Shown here: piece by piece, positions 36,030 to 45,329 of the stretch
Position numbering within the stretch: the stretch's first letter is position 1
Layout of the letters: every line of letters begins with the position of its first letter
Assembly: GCF_000217995.1 (NCBI RefSeq)
Contig: NC_015676.1
Location: 1,843,708 to 1,907,707, forward strand
Length of the DNA: 64,000 bases
Direction of reading: 5' to 3'
From: Methanosalsum zhilinae DSM 4017
GTDB taxonomy: Archaea; Halobacteriota; Methanosarcinia; Methanosarcinales; Methanosarcinaceae
Translations under genes and position numbers: made by a program
Notes under the pieces: generated by a model
Told to the model about the DNA's origin: nothing
The model's input: only the letters and a program-made list of their open reading frames with translations
The model's database searches: none

Positions 36030-36062
36030 AAAAAAAGACGGGACCTGCAACATTTCAGGTCC
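36030..36062 (-). terminator. Terminator hairpin overlapping the fprA stop codon
   Basis: On the minus strand GGACCTG (36062-36056) and CAGGTCC (36047-36041) form a 7-bp stem extended by a CG pair, followed by seven T (36036-36030). The TGA of fprA sits inside the first arm. Confidence 0.65.
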
Positions 36063-37272
36063 GTGTTTGATCTAAACTGGCTATATCTGCGAGCCTGATC
36101 CCAAGTTCCCGGCATGCTTTCAGATCTTCTTTATCCGGTCCAAACTTTATCTGAATTCCCTTTTCAACGATCTCAACACCAGTATTTTCAAGTTCGCTTT
36201 CTGCAAACTTCACACCTCCACCACCCCATCCGTATGATCCAAAGACTGCTGCTTTTTTGTTTTTTGGTCTCAATCCTTTCAGATGTGTGAGAAAACCTGC
36301 AACTGAGTGAAGAGGCCCATTGTTGATTGTTGTGGATCCTATAGCAATGACCGGTGCTTCAAGTATTTCCCTTATTATCATGCTCCATTCATTCTTTCGA
36401 AGATGAAGAAGCTGTGCTTCTATACCCTTTGAGGTAATACCTTCAACAACTACCTTTGCCATCTTTTCAGTACTGCCCCACATACTGTCATATATCACAA
36501 GCACCTTTGGTACAGTTTCACCTGATGCCCATTTGCGGTATGCATCAATTATCTGCCCCGGGTTGTCTCTCCATATAATTCCATGTCCTGTTGCTATCAT
36601 ATCTATCTCAATGTTCAATTTTTCAACCTTTTCCAGTAAATTGAACACAGGCTTGCTAAAAGGCATCAGAATATTTGCATAGTATTCTGATGCTTCCTCA
36701 AGTGCATTATCAACTTCATCATTGAACCTGTGGGATGAAGCCAGATGCTGGCCAAATCCATCGTTTGAAAACAGGATCCTGTCTTCCTTAAGATAGGTCT
36801 GCATGCTGTCAGGCCAGTGAAGCATTGGAGTTTCAATAAACGCAAGTGTACGTTTTCCAAGATCCAGTTCATATCCAGTATCTACCACTTCAAAATCCCA
36901 GGAATCACAACCATAGGGCCTGTAATACTGGCAGAGTCCATCTTTTGCGCGTTTTGTTGCAAATATTTTAGCATTCTGATTCATCTTCATAACTCTGGAA
37001 AGAGAACTTGAATGATCAGGTTCTACATGATTTGCTACCACATAATCGATTTTTGCCGGATCCACTACCTTTTCTATACGGCTGATCATCTCATCTGCCA
37101 GATGATCCTTGACTGTGTCTATAAGGGTGATCTTATCATCAAGGATCAGATATGAGTTGTATGAACTGCCTTTAGGGGTTGCATATGCATGAAAATCGCG
37201 CAGGTTCCAGTCAATCACCCCTACCCAGTATATATTCTCTGAAATTTCCACAGGATAGTATTCATCTTCCAT
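36055..37272 (-). CDS. fprA: Flavodiiron protein, F420H2 oxidase type
   Basis: FprA reduces O2 to water with electrons from F420H2, protecting the methanogen. The 405 residues have the metallo-beta-lactamase-like diiron domain with HVEPDH at 82-87, MLHWPDS near 150, SNDGFG near 170 and TGHGIIW near 230. A flavodoxin domain begins KVLVIYDSMWGSTEKMA near 257. All six iron ligands appear present. The size matches methanogen FprA. It follows the ferritin-like gene by 26 bases, so the two form an oxygen-defence unit ending at a hairpin terminator. Confidence 0.92.
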   Translation of the reverse strand: MEDEYYPVEISENIYWVGVIDWNLRDFHAYATPKGSSYNSYLILDDKITLIDTVKDHLADEMISRIEKVVDPAKIDYVVANHVEPDHSSSLSRVMKMNQNAKIFATKRAKDGLCQYYRPYGCDSWDFEVVDTGYELDLGKRTLAFIETPMLHWPDSMQTYLKEDRILFSNDGFGQHLASSHRFNDEVDNALEEASEYYANILMPFSKPVFNLLEKVEKLNIEIDMIATGHGIIWRDNPGQIIDAYRKWASGETVPKVLVIYDSMWGSTEKMAKVVVEGITSKGIEAQLLHLRKNEWSMIIREILEAPVIAIGSTTINNGPLHSVAGFLTHLKGLRPKNKKAAVFGSYGWGGGGVKFAESELENTGVEIVEKGIQIKFGPDKEDLKACRELGIRLADIASLDQTRT

Positions 37273-37298: not shown

Positions 37299-37817
37299 TC
37301 ATGTCTGCATTCTAAACTCTGTTGCATATTCCAGAAATCCGTCTATAATCTCGTAATGACCCTTTTCAAATTCTGCAAGCTTTTCGAAAAATTCACGTCT
37401 TTGATCATTGGTTGATCTTTTTGCCAGTTCCCTGTAGAGATTTTCTGTTTTTTTCTCGAACCTGAGGGCAGAAAGAAGTACTCCCTCTTCATCCATCCAG
37501 TTATTTGAGAACTCCTCATCCAGCATTCCCTTAAAATCCGGAGCATCAGAGGCTACAGGCTTGAAATCGGCAATGTCATGGATATTGCCTACCTCTGAAT
37601 TTTTTTCTTTAAAGTCCTTCAGATACTGTGCATGTTTTTTTTCCTCTCCAGCCAGATATTTGAACAGATCCTTTACAGCTGGATTCTGGATCTCCGATAC
37701 TTTGTCCAGATAAAATGATCTTCCCTTTTCTTCCAGAGCAATTGCCATATCCAGAACATCCTCAAAGGACTCAAGATTGTCTATTTCTTCGATTACACTA
37801 TCCATAACATCTTTCAT
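37299..37817 (-). CDS. Ferritin-like/rubrerythrin-domain protein without rubredoxin
   Basis: The 172-residue four-helix protein has two ferritin-like motifs: MAIALEEKGRSFYLDKVSE with EEKKHAQYL, and LRFEKKTENLYRELAKRS with FEKGHYEIID. These supply the glutamates and histidines of a diiron site. There is no C-terminal rubredoxin domain. Probably a peroxidase or iron-handling protein. The start is ATG 37817, 8 bases after AGAGG; a GTG three codons earlier lies inside that site. It is the first gene of the fprA unit. Confidence 0.82.
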   Translation of the reverse strand: MKDVMDSVIEEIDNLESFEDVLDMAIALEEKGRSFYLDKVSEIQNPAVKDLFKYLAGEEKKHAQYLKDFKEKNSEVGNIHDIADFKPVASDAPDFKGMLDEEFSNNWMDEEGVLLSALRFEKKTENLYRELAKRSTNDQRREFFEKLAEFEKGHYEIIDGFLEYATEFRMQT

Positions 37818-38276
37818 ATTTGACACCTCTTTTTATCTATTTATTATTTTAATCATGATCTTAAAAATTCTTTATTGTGAATGATTCATTTCATATTTGA
37901 TTCTAAAAAGACCACCTGTAACTGATTGTTTAAGATAATTCATTCTGTATGCCAGTGAATGGTTCTGTTGATACCCCCTTCAAAGAAAACATTCTCACTA
38001 TTATAGATTTATTTTCCTATATATTTAAATAGGTATCCGTTATACTCTGTAAGTATTAGAAAAGAAGATGTCAATCAGTCACCGATGAGTACTTTTTGAT
38101 TACTGCACTGGATAATACTATTTACATTTCAAATATTATCACATATCTGAACAGAACATATATATCAATTAAGCGAATTAGAAAACTTTTTATTAAGCTG
38201 CTGTCATTAAAGACGGTGAATGGATATTCAGTTCTGGAATTTTCATTATGCTATTATCTGATCATGAGGTGAGATT
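37818..38276. other. Divergent intergenic region, no gene seen
   Basis: This 459-base AT-rich gap separates the fprA unit from inositol phosphate synthase. It holds several TATA-like elements, for example CTTTTTATTAAG near 38187-38198 and CCTATATATTTAAATAG near 38013-38029. A GAGGTGAGAT ribosome site at 38265-38274 serves the plus-strand gene. I find no open frame with a ribosome site, no RNA gene and no repeat. Confidence 0.4.
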
Positions 38277-40227: not shown

Positions 40228-40770
40228 TTATTTTTTCAGTCCAAGAATATTGTATATCTCGTCAGGATCTTTGAGGACTGTAATATTTTCCATCTCTTTT
40301 AATGCTTCAGAATTTTTCACATCGACTTCTCTCATTTTGAGGTCCATTTCCCTGCCACTTGGTGCGTAGGTCTTCACAGTTCCTCTTACCTGATCCACTG
40401 GAAGTATGTATATAGGTGTGTCACCCTTTGCAGTCTGTGCTACAACATTGGTAACCAGAGTATCTGCAATTCCATGTACTATTTTTGCCACAGAATTTGC
40501 TGTTGCAGGGGCCACAAGCAGCATATCATAGTGACCTACCTGTAGTGGACCTGCAATAAATGGTGAATTTGGGCCAGCATCGGTCTTGAAATTTGGAAAA
40601 TCCCTCTGGATGTCATCCCACATTCTGTACCATTTCATCACAGTTTCTCCTTCTTTAGAGAGAAATACCATTATCTCAATATTGGTCTGTTTCTTGATAT
40701 CGACCAGTATCTCATATGTCTCGCGTATCAGGTCACCTGATCCTGTAATTCCCCATGCTATTCGTTTCAA
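40228..40770 (-). CDS. afpA: Archaeoflavoprotein AfpA / dihydromethanopterin reductase-like flavoprotein
   Basis: The 180-residue protein belongs to the FMN-binding flavoprotein (PPC-decarboxylase-like) family: IAWGITGSGDLI at the N-terminus, PFIAGPLQVGHYDMLLVAPATANSVAKI near 70-97, and YILPVDQVRG near 121. In Archaeoglobus and methanogens such proteins take electrons from ferredoxin or reduce dihydromethanopterin. Which of the two applies here is not decided by sequence alone. It follows rubrerythrin by 17 bases on the same strand. Confidence 0.85.
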   Translation of the reverse strand: MKRIAWGITGSGDLIRETYEILVDIKKQTNIEIMVFLSKEGETVMKWYRMWDDIQRDFPNFKTDAGPNSPFIAGPLQVGHYDMLLVAPATANSVAKIVHGIADTLVTNVVAQTAKGDTPIYILPVDQVRGTVKTYAPSGREMDLKMREVDVKNSEALKEMENITVLKDPDEIYNILGLKK

Positions 40771-40787: not shown

Positions 40788-41363
40788 TTAATAATTTCTG
40801 GTCCAGAGTTCAAAGTGAGATATTGGATGTGCACATGCCGGACATTCATCAGGTGCTTCTTTACCTTCATGTATATATCCGCAGTTTCTGCATTTCCACC
40901 TGACTTCTTTATCCTTTTTGAAAACGGATCCATTATCTATATTTTCAGCCAGTGCACGGAATCTGTCCTCATGACCGATCTCTGCAACAGCAATTTTTCT
41001 AAAGACCTCTGCAATTTCTGAAAATCCCTCATTCTCTGCAATTTCAGCAAACTTTGGATACATCTGAGAGTGTTCGTATTTTTCTCCCTCTGCAGCAGCT
41101 ATAAGATTTTTCTTTGTATCTGAGATCACGCCTGCAGGAAAAGCTCCGTCTATTTTAACTTCTCCACCTTCGAGGAATTTGAAAAGCCTTTTTGCATGCT
41201 CCTTTTCATTATCGGCAGTTTCCTGGAAGAAAGAGGCTATCTGTTCATAACCTGCCTTTTTTGCAACAGATGCAAAATATGTATATCTGTTTCGTGCCTG
41301 GGATTCCCCGGCAAAGGCTGTCAGAAGGTTCTTTTCAGTTTGTGTTCCCTTAATTGATCCCAT
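40788..41363 (-). CDS. rbr: Rubrerythrin
   Basis: Non-heme peroxidase that removes H2O2. The 191 residues have the ferritin-like diiron domain (AFAGESQARNRYTYFA, TADNEKEHAKRLF, AAAEGEKYEHSQMYP, IAVAEIGHEDRF) and the C-terminal rubredoxin-like iron site CRNCGYIHEGKEAPDECPAC. The length is the family standard when ATG 41363 is used. GTGGTGA upstream is the ribosome site, and the extra GTG codons are inside it. Co-transcribed with afpA. Confidence 0.95.
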   Translation of the reverse strand: MGSIKGTQTEKNLLTAFAGESQARNRYTYFASVAKKAGYEQIASFFQETADNEKEHAKRLFKFLEGGEVKIDGAFPAGVISDTKKNLIAAAEGEKYEHSQMYPKFAEIAENEGFSEIAEVFRKIAVAEIGHEDRFRALAENIDNGSVFKKDKEVRWKCRNCGYIHEGKEAPDECPACAHPISHFELWTRNY

Positions 41364-41411
41364 AAAATTCACCACATAGTAATTGATATTTAAATATTTG
41401 ATATTTACTGT

Positions 41412-42110
41412 TCAATATCCTGTAAATGATTCCTTTTTTATCTTATTTGAAGCAACATCCATGTTCTTCAAAAGACTGGCAATGGATTTTACCATGGGTG
41501 GTGGACCGCATATGTAAAAGACACGTTCTTTATAGTCTGGTATCTTATCAGATATCATGGATTCACTTATACGACCCTGGCATCCTTCCCATTCTTCATC
41601 AGGTCTGGTAAGGGTTTCAATGAATGTGAGATTGGGGTTTATTGTTTCCATCTCCCTGAGTTCCCGGCGAAATATGCAATCATTCTCATTTTTATAACTG
41701 CTGATGAGAACTATGCTGGTATCAAGACTTTTGTCAGTGCAGTATTTGCAGATACTGATCATTGGAGTAATTCCAATACCTCCACTCAGCAATCCGATTT
41801 TTTTGTACTTGTCTTCGAAAACCAGTTTTCCATAGGGTCCTTCAATAACTGCCTTATCTCCGATATCCATTTGTTCAAGCGCATTTGAAAATTCATGGCC
41901 TGTAAGCTTTTTTGTAAACTCTATGTATTCTGTATCTGTAGGGCTGCTTGATAGGGTAAATGGCTTCCTGGCTCTTTTCCCGTTGATCTCAAGTTCGATT
42001 GTGATATACTGACCAGGTTTGTAGCTGAACTCAGATGGTCTTGGAAACCTGAAACTCTTGACGTCAGCACTTCTGTATATTATCTCAATGACTCTCTCTT
42101 CAAATTTCAA
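41412..42110 (-). CDS. FAD/NAD(P)-binding oxidoreductase, ferredoxin-NADP reductase-like
   Basis: The 232-residue protein has the FAD-binding RKPFTLSSSP (RxYS variant) near 48, a glycine-rich GLLSGGIGITPMISI near 106 and the C-terminal YICGPPPMVKSIASLL. A plant-type ferredoxin or CxxxC cluster is absent. It passes electrons between NAD(P)H and a carrier, perhaps one of the neighbouring iron-sulfur or heme proteins. It follows the iron-sulfur flavoprotein gene by 14 bases. Confidence 0.85.
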   Translation of the reverse strand: MKFEERVIEIIYRSADVKSFRFPRPSEFSYKPGQYITIELEINGKRARKPFTLSSSPTDTEYIEFTKKLTGHEFSNALEQMDIGDKAVIEGPYGKLVFEDKYKKIGLLSGGIGITPMISICKYCTDKSLDTSIVLISSYKNENDCIFRRELREMETINPNLTFIETLTRPDEEWEGCQGRISESMISDKIPDYKERVFYICGPPPMVKSIASLLKNMDVASNKIKKESFTGY

Positions 42111-42124
42111 CCCGGTAACCTCTC

Positions 42125-42745
42125 TTATTCCTTCATCATAAAATGCCTGGTAATCTCGATCATTCTGTCAATGGTTCGATACATGCTCCTTAGACCCTCT
42201 TTGTCCTCGGATACACCTTCTGCACCTTTATCCTTTGACCAGAATGTTGCTCCAAGATTTGATCCAAAAGACCCACCGGAGACCGGGATCATTTCATTGA
42301 TGACATAGAAATTGTGCATTGCCTGTATTGCAGGTTCCTGTCCCCCTACCCGATCTCCTCCAGTGGCCACTCCTATTCCAATTTTGTTCTTGAACTGTTT
42401 TGGATTGCGGGCAACGACCGCACGACATCTGTCCATGATAGCTTTGGTCTGTCCGCTCAGTGTTCCCTGGTATACCGGTGTGCCTATTATCCATGCATCT
42501 GCCCATATCATCTTATCGTACAGTTCCACAAGGTCATCCTTAAAGACACACCCAATCTTTTTACGAATACAATAATCACAGTGAATGCAGAAATTTATAT
42601 TTTTACCACTTGCAGAAAAATAATCGGTTGATACTGAATATTTCTCTTCTGCATACCTTAGTCCTTCATTAACGACATAATCAGTTGCCTTTTTTCTGGG
42701 ACTTCCGGAAATTCCCAGAACCCTGATCTTTTTTTCAGATCCCAT
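42125..42745 (-). CDS. isf: Iron-sulfur flavoprotein (Isf)
   Basis: The 206 residues have the FMN-binding GISGSPRKKATDY and the compact cluster motif C53-x2-C56-x2-C59-x6-C66, which falls in the C-x2-C-x2-C-x4-7-C range of Methanosarcina Isf. This protein takes electrons from ferredoxin and can reduce O2 or H2O2. Conserved flavodoxin-like segments IWADAWIIGTPVYQGTLSGQ and GVATGGDRVGGQE follow. It shares a transcript with the FNR-like reductase downstream. Confidence 0.9.
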   Translation of the reverse strand: MGSEKKIRVLGISGSPRKKATDYVVNEGLRYAEEKYSVSTDYFSASGKNINFCIHCDYCIRKKIGCVFKDDLVELYDKMIWADAWIIGTPVYQGTLSGQTKAIMDRCRAVVARNPKQFKNKIGIGVATGGDRVGGQEPAIQAMHNFYVINEMIPVSGGSFGSNLGATFWSKDKGAEGVSEDKEGLRSMYRTIDRMIEITRHFMMKE

Positions 42746-42801: not shown

Positions 42802-44187
42802 TTATCTGTTTCTGTTTGACCTAAAATATGCTGCTATACCTATTATAATGGCCACAGCAATAAACCCGATTCCAGGAAGAGGCTCATCCGGAATCTGTTC
42901 TTCCCGGGGTATATCTGGAGAAAAAATAAGATGTGTTTTTTCGGTCATTGTTATCACAGGCACCTCATAGGTACCTTCACCGAAGAGATAATCTATTTTT
43001 TCCTGGGAAGCTGATCTGTAGTTCAATCTTGCATCAACTGTCAGCCCAAAGGAAACATTTTCAGGAATCTCAAAGATATGCTCTTCATAGACAGTCCCTT
43101 CAGTTGGAATTCGCTGATCTGAAAGAACACCTTCAGCCCTCCAGAAATATGTTGTGGGTTCTCCATCTTCATCCTCCCATACTATGTTGTATATATAAGT
43201 ACCCGGATCAATATCCCCATTTTCATCAACTGTTCCATAGCTGTAGATAACATTTCCTTCTCTGTCAATTACCCTAACAGTTGTCCAGACCTCTCTGATA
43301 TCTGCAACTCCTGTGGGAATGGTGTGGCCTGCACCGGTATTTGTTATGGATATATTGGCAATTATAGTATCTGTTACTCTGGCGGTCTCTGGAGCATGGA
43401 TATCAATCGTTGCAGCATGCTGCAGATTCTCAATTGCCCTGTCTCGGTGTGTGGTTGAGCCCATTATATCGGTTATGAAGGCATTTGCTCCTACAAAATA
43501 ATGGATAGATACATGTTCTCTGGGTGGTGTATTTCCGGTCACTCTACCGGGATTTGCCTGAAACTGTGTAATTCCGGGCGTCATGTGGCAATCCTGGCAT
43601 TGTGTGCCTTCAATAGCATAGGTGCTGTTTTTCCATTGCAGGTACGTGTCATCAATTACCAGATCACGGGTTGGATGAATAACATAATGGCATCCTCCAC
43701 ATATTTCAGATCTTGTCTGCAGTTCAAGATATTCAGATTCATGTGCAGGTGTTTCTACTGGATCCTGAATTGAACCCCATTTAGTATCTCCTGGAGTTAC
43801 AATATAAGGCGCATTTCCAACTCCCACCATTCCTGATACACTGTGGCAGAAATCACAGTGTACTCCTCTAACTGATACTTCAGAAAGTGTACGATGTTCA
43901 AATTCTCCAGTAAGTACCCCAACAGGTGTATGACACTGGGCACAGTATTGGTCTGTAAGGCCATCAGTATCATGGCTTGCAATTTCAAATTCTTTTAGAT
44001 AGAATGGATCTGTCTGAGCATATGAATGCATACTCCCGCTCCACTGGCTATGCAATACTCCATGACAGGTTGAACAGTGGCCAGGTCTGTCAAATTGTTC
44101 AGCACTCAATTCTGAAGGCTGTGTGGGTGTGCCGGCATTGGTCATACCTGCAGGTATTAATATGCTCAGCAGTAGAAATGCTGCCAT
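42802..44187 (-). CDS. Membrane-anchored pentaheme c-type cytochrome
   Basis: The protein has 461 residues from ATG 44187. It has a signal peptide, five CxxCH heme sites (38-42, 82-86, 111-115, 163-167, 197-201), a beta-rich domain (about 230-425) with TNTGAGHTIPTG, and a C-terminal helix (about 437-456) preceded by PDEPLPGIGF. Its heme domain resembles cytochrome c554/c552-like multihemes. Exported and anchored, it could exchange electrons at the cell surface. The start is uncertain: ATG 44187 is 20 bases from the ribosome site and the signal peptide lacks a basic residue. Six codons upstream an in-frame ATC with ideal spacing would add an arginine. Confidence 0.88.
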   Translation of the reverse strand: MAAFLLLSILIPAGMTNAGTPTQPSELSAEQFDRPGHCSTCHGVLHSQWSGSMHSYAQTDPFYLKEFEIASHDTDGLTDQYCAQCHTPVGVLTGEFEHRTLSEVSVRGVHCDFCHSVSGMVGVGNAPYIVTPGDTKWGSIQDPVETPAHESEYLELQTRSEICGGCHYVIHPTRDLVIDDTYLQWKNSTYAIEGTQCQDCHMTPGITQFQANPGRVTGNTPPREHVSIHYFVGANAFITDIMGSTTHRDRAIENLQHAATIDIHAPETARVTDTIIANISITNTGAGHTIPTGVADIREVWTTVRVIDREGNVIYSYGTVDENGDIDPGTYIYNIVWEDEDGEPTTYFWRAEGVLSDQRIPTEGTVYEEHIFEIPENVSFGLTVDARLNYRSASQEKIDYLFGEGTYEVPVITMTEKTHLIFSPDIPREEQIPDEPLPGIGFIAVAIIIGIAAYFRSNRNR

Positions 44188-44235
44188 AATCCATATCGAT
44201 CTGATATCTCCACCCCCTCAAAAACTGAACTGGAA

Positions 44236-44294: not shown

Positions 44295-44651
44295 TTACTC
44301 TTTGAGCAATTTGAGTGCATTCCTGCATGCAGCAACGGCTGGAGCACCTGATGTTATGAAGATGACCTCCATGGTTTCCATGATTTCTTCCTTTGTTGCA
44401 CCTGCAGTGAGTGCGCTTTTCATCTGGGCTACTGTACATGCTTCACACTGCTTGGATGCAACAACTGCAAGAGCCATCAATCGTTTAGTTTTTGCAGGAA
44501 GTGCTCCATCTGAGAGTAATTTCTGATCACACCTATTGTATTTCTGGAGAAATTCAGGATCTACCTCTTCAAGGACCTTGAGTATATGTGGTGTAAACCC
44601 CATTTTTCCGCCCATACTATCCAGAAGTTCATCTTTGTCTTTGTGCATCAT
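44295..44651 (-). CDS. Carboxymuconolactone decarboxylase/AhpD-like protein
   Basis: The 118-residue helical protein has the AhpD core with the redox pair CEAC in [26 protein letters not shown], followed by [23 protein letters not shown]. AhpD-like proteins reduce peroxides or act as thiol-disulfide relays. The start is ATG 44651, 7 bases after AAAGAGGA; six upstream codons overlap the ribosome site. It sits between the cytochrome and the small Zn-protein genes of the redox island. Confidence 0.87.
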
Positions 44652-44707
44652 TTTATAATCCTCTTTCATCTGTATTCTATTATAATATAAGGTTATTAAT
44701 TTTCATT

Positions 44708-44926
44708 TCAGTCAAATGCATCTACCATTATCTGATCCACACAATCTCTGCAGAGGAAACGAGGGAGGGGAATCTTGCATTCCTTGTACTCAGGATATTT
44801 TCCGGCTGATACCGGGAGCTCTATTACTTTCACATGATCCATACAAAGCCCCATTCCACATACGATACATACCGCAACTGCTTCTGTATCTTTGTTCTCT
44901 TCAAGACACTTGTAACATTTCATCAT
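44708..44926 (-). CDS. DUF2180 family small zinc-binding protein
   Basis: The 72-residue protein has four cysteine pairs or near-pairs: MKCYKC, AVCIVCGMGLCMDH and FLCRDC. This is the DUF2180 pattern of small archaeal Cys-rich proteins that probably hold two zinc ions. The start is ATG 44926, 6 bases after AGGTG; a second ATG follows at once. It is a paralogue of the next gene upstream (44944-45177), with 17 bases between them. Function unknown. Confidence 0.8.
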   Translation of the reverse strand: MMKCYKCLEENKDTEAVAVCIVCGMGLCMDHVKVIELPVSAGKYPEYKECKIPLPRFLCRDCVDQIMVDAFD

Positions 44927-44943
44927 GAATAACACCTGTGAAC

Positions 44944-45177
44944 TTAAGTGCGTACCTCGCAGACATTTTCCACGAGCGCTTCATGACAGGATTTGCATAC
45001 TATTCTGTCAATATGCTCTATGTCCTTTCCTTCAAGATGTACACTATACTCCTTGAATCCAATAATTGGAATCTCTTCTCTTATTAGATGTTCACTACAA
45101 ACACCTCTCCCACAGATAATGCATATTCCTGCAGAATCAGTGTCTTTTCCCATTTTTGCACAATCGTAACATTTCAT
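44944..45177 (-). CDS. DUF2180 family small zinc-binding protein, second copy
   Basis: The 77-residue paralogue of the neighbouring gene has MKCYDC, AGICIICGRGVCSEH and IVCKSC in the same spacing, with a longer middle loop (HLEGKDIEHIDR). The start is ATG 45177, preceded by CCGGTGATAG; the longer frame from 45219 would run over the end of the desulforedoxin gene and has no ribosome site. The tandem pair follows desulforedoxin in one minus-strand transcript. Confidence 0.8.
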   Translation of the reverse strand: MKCYDCAKMGKDTDSAGICIICGRGVCSEHLIREEIPIIGFKEYSVHLEGKDIEHIDRIVCKSCHEALVENVCEVRT

Positions 45178-45215
45178 TCTATCACCGGAATAAAGATCAA
45201 TAACTAACCTGAAAA

Positions 45216-45329
45216 TCATTTTATCAATTTCATATCTTCCCCGCAGCAGACAAGGATTCCACCGCCTACTTTAGTAACTTCTACTTCATTCCCACATATC
45301 TCGCAAACATATTGGTCACCTACCTTCAT
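45216..45329 (-). CDS. dsr: Desulforedoxin
   Basis: A 37-residue protein, [18 protein letters not shown], then [12 protein letters not shown]. The iron ligands are C9, C12 and the adjacent pair C28-C29, the hallmark of desulforedoxin and the N-terminal domain of desulfoferrodoxin. A strong ribosome site GGAGGTGGAT precedes the ATG. It is free-standing, with no superoxide reductase (neelaredoxin) domain attached or adjacent. It would be a one-electron carrier, first in the unit with the two DUF2180 genes. Confidence 0.9.

Follow-up and report, generated by a model that had tools for sequence, protein, structure and literature searches.

A pentaheme c-type cytochrome of Methanosalsum zhilinae in a recurring oxygen-defence gene setting

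We analysed a stretch of 64,000 nucleotides from the methanogenic archaeon Methanosalsum zhilinae DSM 4017 (contig NC_015676.1, positions 1,843,708 to 1,907,707 of the forward strand), called the window here, whose own positions are used below. It encodes a pentaheme c-type cytochrome (PHC) among genes for oxygen defence. The identity of the protein is already known, and the repeated oxygen-defence setting is the part worth following. We give an even chance to the reading that PHC is anchored at the cell surface, belongs to an oxygen-stress gene set and carries electrons from the membrane to oxygen-derived oxidants outside.

42802..44187, minus strand: pentaheme c-type cytochrome (PHC), 461 amino acids, ATG start

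Results

Heme motifs, export and anchor

PHC has an export-type N-terminus, a five-heme domain (about residues 30-230), an immunoglobulin-like (Ig-like) domain (about 255-425) and a C-terminal hydrophobic segment. The five CxxCH motifs start at residues 38, 82, 111, 163 and 197, hold all 10 cysteines of the protein and are conserved in relatives. A chance origin of the motifs was ruled out, as 0 of 200,000 shuffles of the sequence gave more than 2 of them. By hydropathy, the N-terminal segment is weak (mean 1.61 from residue 1) and the C-terminal segment is strong (mean 2.30 from residue 437), so PHC fits an exported, membrane-held protein. The first-pass annotation had described five motifs on a protein exported and held at its C-terminus; the motifs are confirmed, and hydrophobic segments lie at both ends.

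In close relatives, the C-terminus carries (S/T)PGFG, followed by a hydrophobic stretch and a basic tail. Read as a PGF-CTERM-like sorting signal, this sequence indicates that the C-terminal helix may be cut off and a lipid anchor put in its place. The window protein has no match to the sorting-signal models, and the relative at locus L011 scores 21.1 with PF18204 (cut-off 18.8) and 19.8 with TIGR04126 (cut-off 24.5). The window genome, a single contig of 2,138,444 bases, encodes an archaeosortase (TIGR04125, 257 bits, cut-off 75). Archaeosortase-type lipid anchoring of PHC is likely on these features. The true start codon is uncertain: counted from the annotated ATG, the signal segment lacks basic residues at its start, and the frame continues without a stop for about 10 further codons upstream (471 amino acids in all), where it has no common start codon. 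By eye, no convincing ribosome-binding site precedes this ATG at the expected spacing (44187-44230).

Cytochrome c maturation genes are present in the genome: two Cytochrom_C_asm proteins of the CcmC/CcmF type (117.9 and 114.1 bits) and one CcmE (54.4 bits). The first-pass annotation, which the absence of such genes would have refuted, stands on this point. Among 111 Methanosarcinaceae genomes, CcmE occurs in 83. These comprise 74 of the 75 genomes with the cytochrome, remnants included (the exception, G100, is 60% complete), and 9 of the 36 without it, one of the 9 with internal stops.

Family, fold and heme ligands

By its sequence, PHC is a member of the published methanosarcinal five-heme cytochrome family MA3739 / MM_0633 and not a new kind of cytochrome, which removes the novelty first attached to it. 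A five-heme orthologue in genome G074 (5,751,492 bases) aligns with PHC over the full length at 44% identity (207 of 466 columns), and both proteins have five CxxCH motifs. We take G074 to be Methanosarcina acetivorans C2A and assigned the tag MA3739 from this and the heme count. The tag MM_0633 was assigned in the same way to the orthologue in a genome that we take to be that of Methanosarcina mazei. The literature names the M. acetivorans five-heme cytochrome MA3739 (PMC6703419) and an M. mazei multiheme cytochrome MM_0633 (PMC6962339).

MmcA is, like PHC, an exported multiheme c-type cytochrome of Methanosarcinaceae, but has seven hemes and an rnf neighbourhood. PHC was ruled out as MmcA by a BLASTP E value of 0.17, by the lack of a TIGR04314 (methano7heme) match at E 0.01 and by its neighbours, which are not rnf genes. 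MmcA is a separate gene of the window genome (L193:6651-8225, TIGR04314 697 bits), so the distinction between the two proteins made in the first-pass annotation stands. It is followed by RnfC, RnfD and RnfB (L193:6651-13162), and the genome holds both a seven-heme and a five-heme cytochrome. MmcA has been related to the OTR family (PMC11024163).

The start of the PHC heme domain matches the Pfam family Cytochrome_C554 (PF13435) at 32.8 bits (gathering score 20.8). Searching PDB sequences with a profile from a 24-row alignment gave the pentaheme cytochrome c552 of Thermochromatium tepidum (5ze8) at 4.5e-44, the multiheme selenoprotein MccSep at 6.3e-26 and cytochrome c554 at 3.6e-8, with weak scores for NrfA (5.6e-5 and worse). 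An AlphaFold2 model of PHC reached a mean predicted local distance difference test score (pLDDT) of 72.2 and a predicted template modelling score (pTM) of 0.74. It matches 5ze8 over almost its entire length (Foldseek E 9.8e-16; VIA Z 28.2, 337 residues, root-mean-square deviation 3.1, 20% identity). Structure searches otherwise returned mostly generic Ig-like folds, one of which, the putative superoxide reductase 2amu (rank 33, E 1.5e-3), was not used.

The five-heme plus Ig-like architecture modelled for PHC is thus already known from 5ze8, with about 20% of structurally aligned residues identical between the two proteins. The 5ze8 protein differs from PHC in being water-soluble and is not known to have an archaeal sorting tail. 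Cytochrome c554 of Nitrosomonas (1bvb) shares its Pfam family with the start of the PHC heme domain, but has four hemes in a single domain and is not known to have an Ig-like domain, whereas PHC has five motifs and that domain. The profile match to the ExtKL / MccSep selenoprotein (NF040886; 9wt8) covers the GHxxPTG segment; PHC differs in reaching only 28 bits with NF040886 against a cut-off of 250 and in having no cysteine outside its heme motifs. A literature search on the MccSep selenoprotein found nothing relevant.

H54, H229 and H288 of PHC align with histidines of 5ze8 in an HMMER alignment read by eye. H54, H149, H229 and H288 are present in every archaeal row that has letters there and in 19, 17, 24 and 24 of 24 bacterial rows, respectively. 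For H225, 83 of 87 archaeal rows have the histidine and three have N, and 1 of 24 bacterial rows has it; the 87 rows are not independent, as 4 are incomplete fragments, one repeats the window protein (L039) and some genomes appear twice. By histidine conservation, besides the five motif histidines there are four firm candidates for five hemes, which suggests that the sixth ligand of one heme may be replaceable or absent and that O2, peroxide or NO might bind there.

The gene run in the window

PHC lies within a run of genes on one strand, in the order DUF2180 protein a, DUF2180 protein b, AhpD/carboxymuconolactone decarboxylase-like protein (CMD), PHC, iron-sulfur flavoprotein-like protein, FNR-like reductase, rubrerythrin and AfpA. 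The gaps between them are, in this order, 8, 38, 107, 56, 14, 36 and 17 nucleotides. Beyond AfpA are two opposite-strand genes and then the ferritin-like and FprA-type genes.

44944..45219, minus strand: DUF2180 protein a (PF09947, 1.5e-22)
44708..44935, minus strand: DUF2180 protein b (PF09947, 4.3e-24)
44295..44669, minus strand: AhpD/carboxymuconolactone decarboxylase-like protein, CMD (PF02627, 4.2e-19)
42125..42745, minus strand: iron-sulfur flavoprotein-like protein with FMN_red domain (PF03358, 1.6e-30; CxxCxxCx5C by eye)
41412..42110, minus strand: FNR-like FAD/NAD(P) reductase (PF00175, PF00970; no membrane segment by hydropathy)
40788..41375, minus strand: rubrerythrin (NF045767, 3.7e-90, above cut-off)
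40228..40770, minus strand: archaeoflavoprotein AfpA (TIGR02699, 7.1e-81, above cut-off)
37299..37826, minus strand: rubrerythrin/ferritin-like protein (PF02915, 5.6e-16)
36055..37272, minus strand: FprA-type flavodiiron protein, O2 or NO reductase type (PF19583, 1e-27; PF00258, 2.8e-17)

The FprA-type protein also matches NF008887 at 1e-135, below the cut-off of that model. By hydropathy, neither the FNR-like reductase nor the iron-sulfur flavoprotein has an export or membrane segment. Since the hemes would lie outside the membrane, direct feeding of PHC by these two proteins, as the first-pass annotation proposed, is unlikely unless a membrane relay connects them.

Conservation of the setting in Methanosarcinaceae

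The cytochrome or a remnant of it was found in 75 of the 111 family genomes. Neighbourhoods were read in 40 of these 75, with a preference for longer contigs, and 4 of the stretches end at contig ends. Rubrerythrin, ferritin-like protein, FprA, superoxide reductase, catalase, peroxiredoxin and ferritin within 7 kb were taken as strict oxygen-defence markers, and the control stretches from the same family were non-random, each placed at a round coordinate or the start of a contig. At least one strict marker is present at 34 of 40 family loci vs 1 of 40 control stretches. The oxygen-defence cluster named in the first-pass annotation therefore recurs well beyond the window. The six loci without a strict marker are L085, L086, L087 and L109, all from one genus that we presume to be Methanohalophilus, together with L093, which meets a contig end, and L102.

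Both DUF2180 genes and CMD lie within 7 kb of PHC at 40 of 40 loci, and the iron-sulfur flavoprotein-like gene and AfpA at 39 of 40. The tandem DUF2180 pair (44708-45219) stays near the cytochrome throughout this sample. The MA3739 / MM_0633 loci share with the window the DUF2180 pair, CMD, the iron-sulfur flavoprotein-like protein, AfpA and the ferritin-like and FprA neighbours. They differ in that a desulfoferrodoxin/superoxide reductase gene lies directly upstream of the cytochrome in both genomes, which we take to be those of M. acetivorans and M. mazei, without an FNR-like or rubrerythrin gene between; the window shows the opposite. In M. mazei this gene is presumably MM_0632, which has been described as methanoferrodoxin.

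The cytochrome can also be missing while its neighbours remain. In G072 (L113), from a genus-mate of M. zhilinae, it is cleanly lost and both DUF2180 genes, CMD, the iron-sulfur flavoprotein-like gene, the FNR-like gene and AfpA are kept. In G044 and G050 (L116, L117) it has decayed to remnants, with the rest of the run whole.

ANME-1, order-mates and bacteria

In ANME-1-type loci (L002-L013), counted without controls of their own, a superoxide reductase-like gene is immediately downstream of PHC in 12 of 12. Eleven of the twelve have an EncFtn-like ferritin gene immediately upstream, the exception (L012) being cut at its start, and this gene overlaps the PHC start by 4 nucleotides where that start is intact. 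Many of these loci also have genes for catalase, peroxiredoxin, ferritin, a PerR-like protein and FprA close by. The EncFtn-like gene encodes 93 amino acids in L008:5654-5935 and L011:5654-5935. Contigs filed as Candidatus Methanolliviera (L006, L007) carry cytochromes near-identical to ANME-1 ones (L008, L010), possibly through misbinning.

Among order-mates, superoxide reductase or FprA is near the cytochrome in 5 of 9 loci (L124, L126, L128, L130, L131). It is found in 3 of 20 order-level control stretches, one of the three strong. These controls, likewise not placed at random, were scored along their entire length, and four of them are shorter contigs or near-duplicate genomes. In a tenth locus, L132, the gene is a distant paralogue with neither superoxide reductase nor FprA nearby. 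In bacteria, relatives of the cytochrome stand immediately ahead of genes for Rieske and split cytochrome b proteins in L016 (5968-8659) and L017 (4014-7047), and a molybdopterin oxidoreductase gene adjoins the relative in L020 and L021 and is one small gene away in L018. The five bacterial neighbourhoods examined fit an electron-transfer subunit on the quinol side. The L016 and L017 arrangement resembles the c subunit of a bc-type complex.

A tree of 51 rows from selected loci, leaving out rows shorter than 380 amino acids (330 for bacteria) or with stops, groups the window protein with Methanohalobium (99/97) and the ANME-1-type rows in one clade (100/100), with the deep order unsettled. Since the lineages are few, the oxygen-defence association amounts to roughly four independent settings at most.

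Discussion

The proposed role of PHC can be laid out as a path. One domain with five covalently bound c hemes, followed by the Ig-like domain, would sit on the outer face of the membrane under the surface layer (S-layer), probably held by an archaeosortase-type lipid. From known methanosarcinal electron transport, we infer that the donor would be a membrane pool, either methanophenazine or a membrane cytochrome. PHC would then hand electrons to oxygen-derived oxidants on the outside, either straight from one weakly ligated heme or by way of a partner protein. The inside of the cell would be covered by the co-encoded cytoplasmic rubrerythrin and flavodiiron protein and, in relatives, by superoxide reductase. 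In a wider form, strictly anaerobic methanogens and ANME-1 might share a membrane-fed surface pentaheme side path that scavenges oxygen, with one replaceable heme ligand and paired with superoxide reductase and ferritin-like proteins; this extension we hold as doubtful.

The first-pass annotation had suggested extracellular acceptors. PHC could be a conduit to Fe(III), humics, electrodes or partner cells, perhaps redundant with MmcA, and it is, as such a conduit would be, a surface multiheme cytochrome. The MA3739 transcript rises 4.14-fold with anthraquinone-2,6-disulfonate (AQDS; PMC6703419), MA3739 is up in direct interspecies electron transfer (DIET; PMC8546582), and its expression increases by 80% in an mmcA deletion (PMC11024163). 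In published mutants, however, deleting any one of the four other cytochromes of M. acetivorans, MA3739 included, changed neither AQDS reduction (PMC8546582) nor methane production from Fe(0) (PMC10989991). The M. mazei 633 knock-out was normal on methanol, on acetate, in DIET and on a cathode (PMC6962339), and in M. mazei zm-15 the five-heme gene is highly expressed and goes down with ferrihydrite (PMC11921357). Together, these results speak against the cytochrome being essential to extracellular transfer, though redundancy might mask such a role. The gene setting, moreover, is that of oxygen defence and not rnf, and we find a conduit quite unlikely as the main role.

PHC might instead be a general part of methanogenic electron transfer, such as a membrane-complex subunit working with the flavoproteins on acetate, unrelated to stress. 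Two bacterial relatives adjoin Rieske/cytochrome b genes, and the iron-sulfur flavoprotein and AfpA neighbours are conserved. We regard this as unlikely, given that the knock-out grew normally on methanol and acetate, that the cytochrome has disappeared from a genus-mate and decayed in two other family genomes, each with the run kept, and that the co-encoded flavoproteins have no export segment. A nitrogen-oxide reductase outside the membrane, acting on nitrite, hydroxylamine or NO like relatives of cytochrome c554 or NrfA, would agree with the above-threshold Cytochrome_C554 match, with the c554 and weaker NrfA profile scores and with the nearby flavodiiron protein, which resembles anaerobic NO reductase. 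An NrfA-type enzyme itself was ruled out, as PHC has no CxxCK active-site motif and all ten cysteines fall in CxxCH motifs. Together with the weak NrfA scores and the lack of any other recognised nitrogen-oxide gene among the scanned neighbours, this makes nitrogen-oxide reduction improbable.

Several points also weigh against a role in oxygen defence. Gene order within one family may be inertia, so the 34 loci with markers stand for far fewer than 34 independent events, and the four genomes of one genus (L085, L086, L087, L109) show no strict marker within 7 kb. The panel markers occur at 0 of 24 bacterial loci. The run persists where the cytochrome has gone (L113) or decayed (L116, L117), so the cytoplasmic partners of the cytochrome do not need it. 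The MM0633 protein was present in a concanavalin A eluate, and the MM0633 cluster was reported up on acetate (PMC4350412). The expression changes with AQDS, mmcA deletion, DIET, acetate and ferrihydrite fit general redox regulation as readily as oxygen. Our search of the open-access literature found no oxygen-stress study or stress phenotype of MA3739 / MM_0633 mutants.

The reading of PHC as a surface cytochrome of oxygen defence draws on the following. In two species, the five-heme cytochrome was deleted in studies of extracellular transfer with no effect, and its gene setting points elsewhere. A 2011 thesis that characterised the MM_0633 knock-out names protection from oxygen radicals in its title. 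In several archaeal lineages, including ANME-1, the oxygen-defence neighbours have been kept or rebuilt with different genes. If the proposal is true, it would provide a function for an orphan cytochrome and would show how strict anaerobes meet oxygen at the cell surface.
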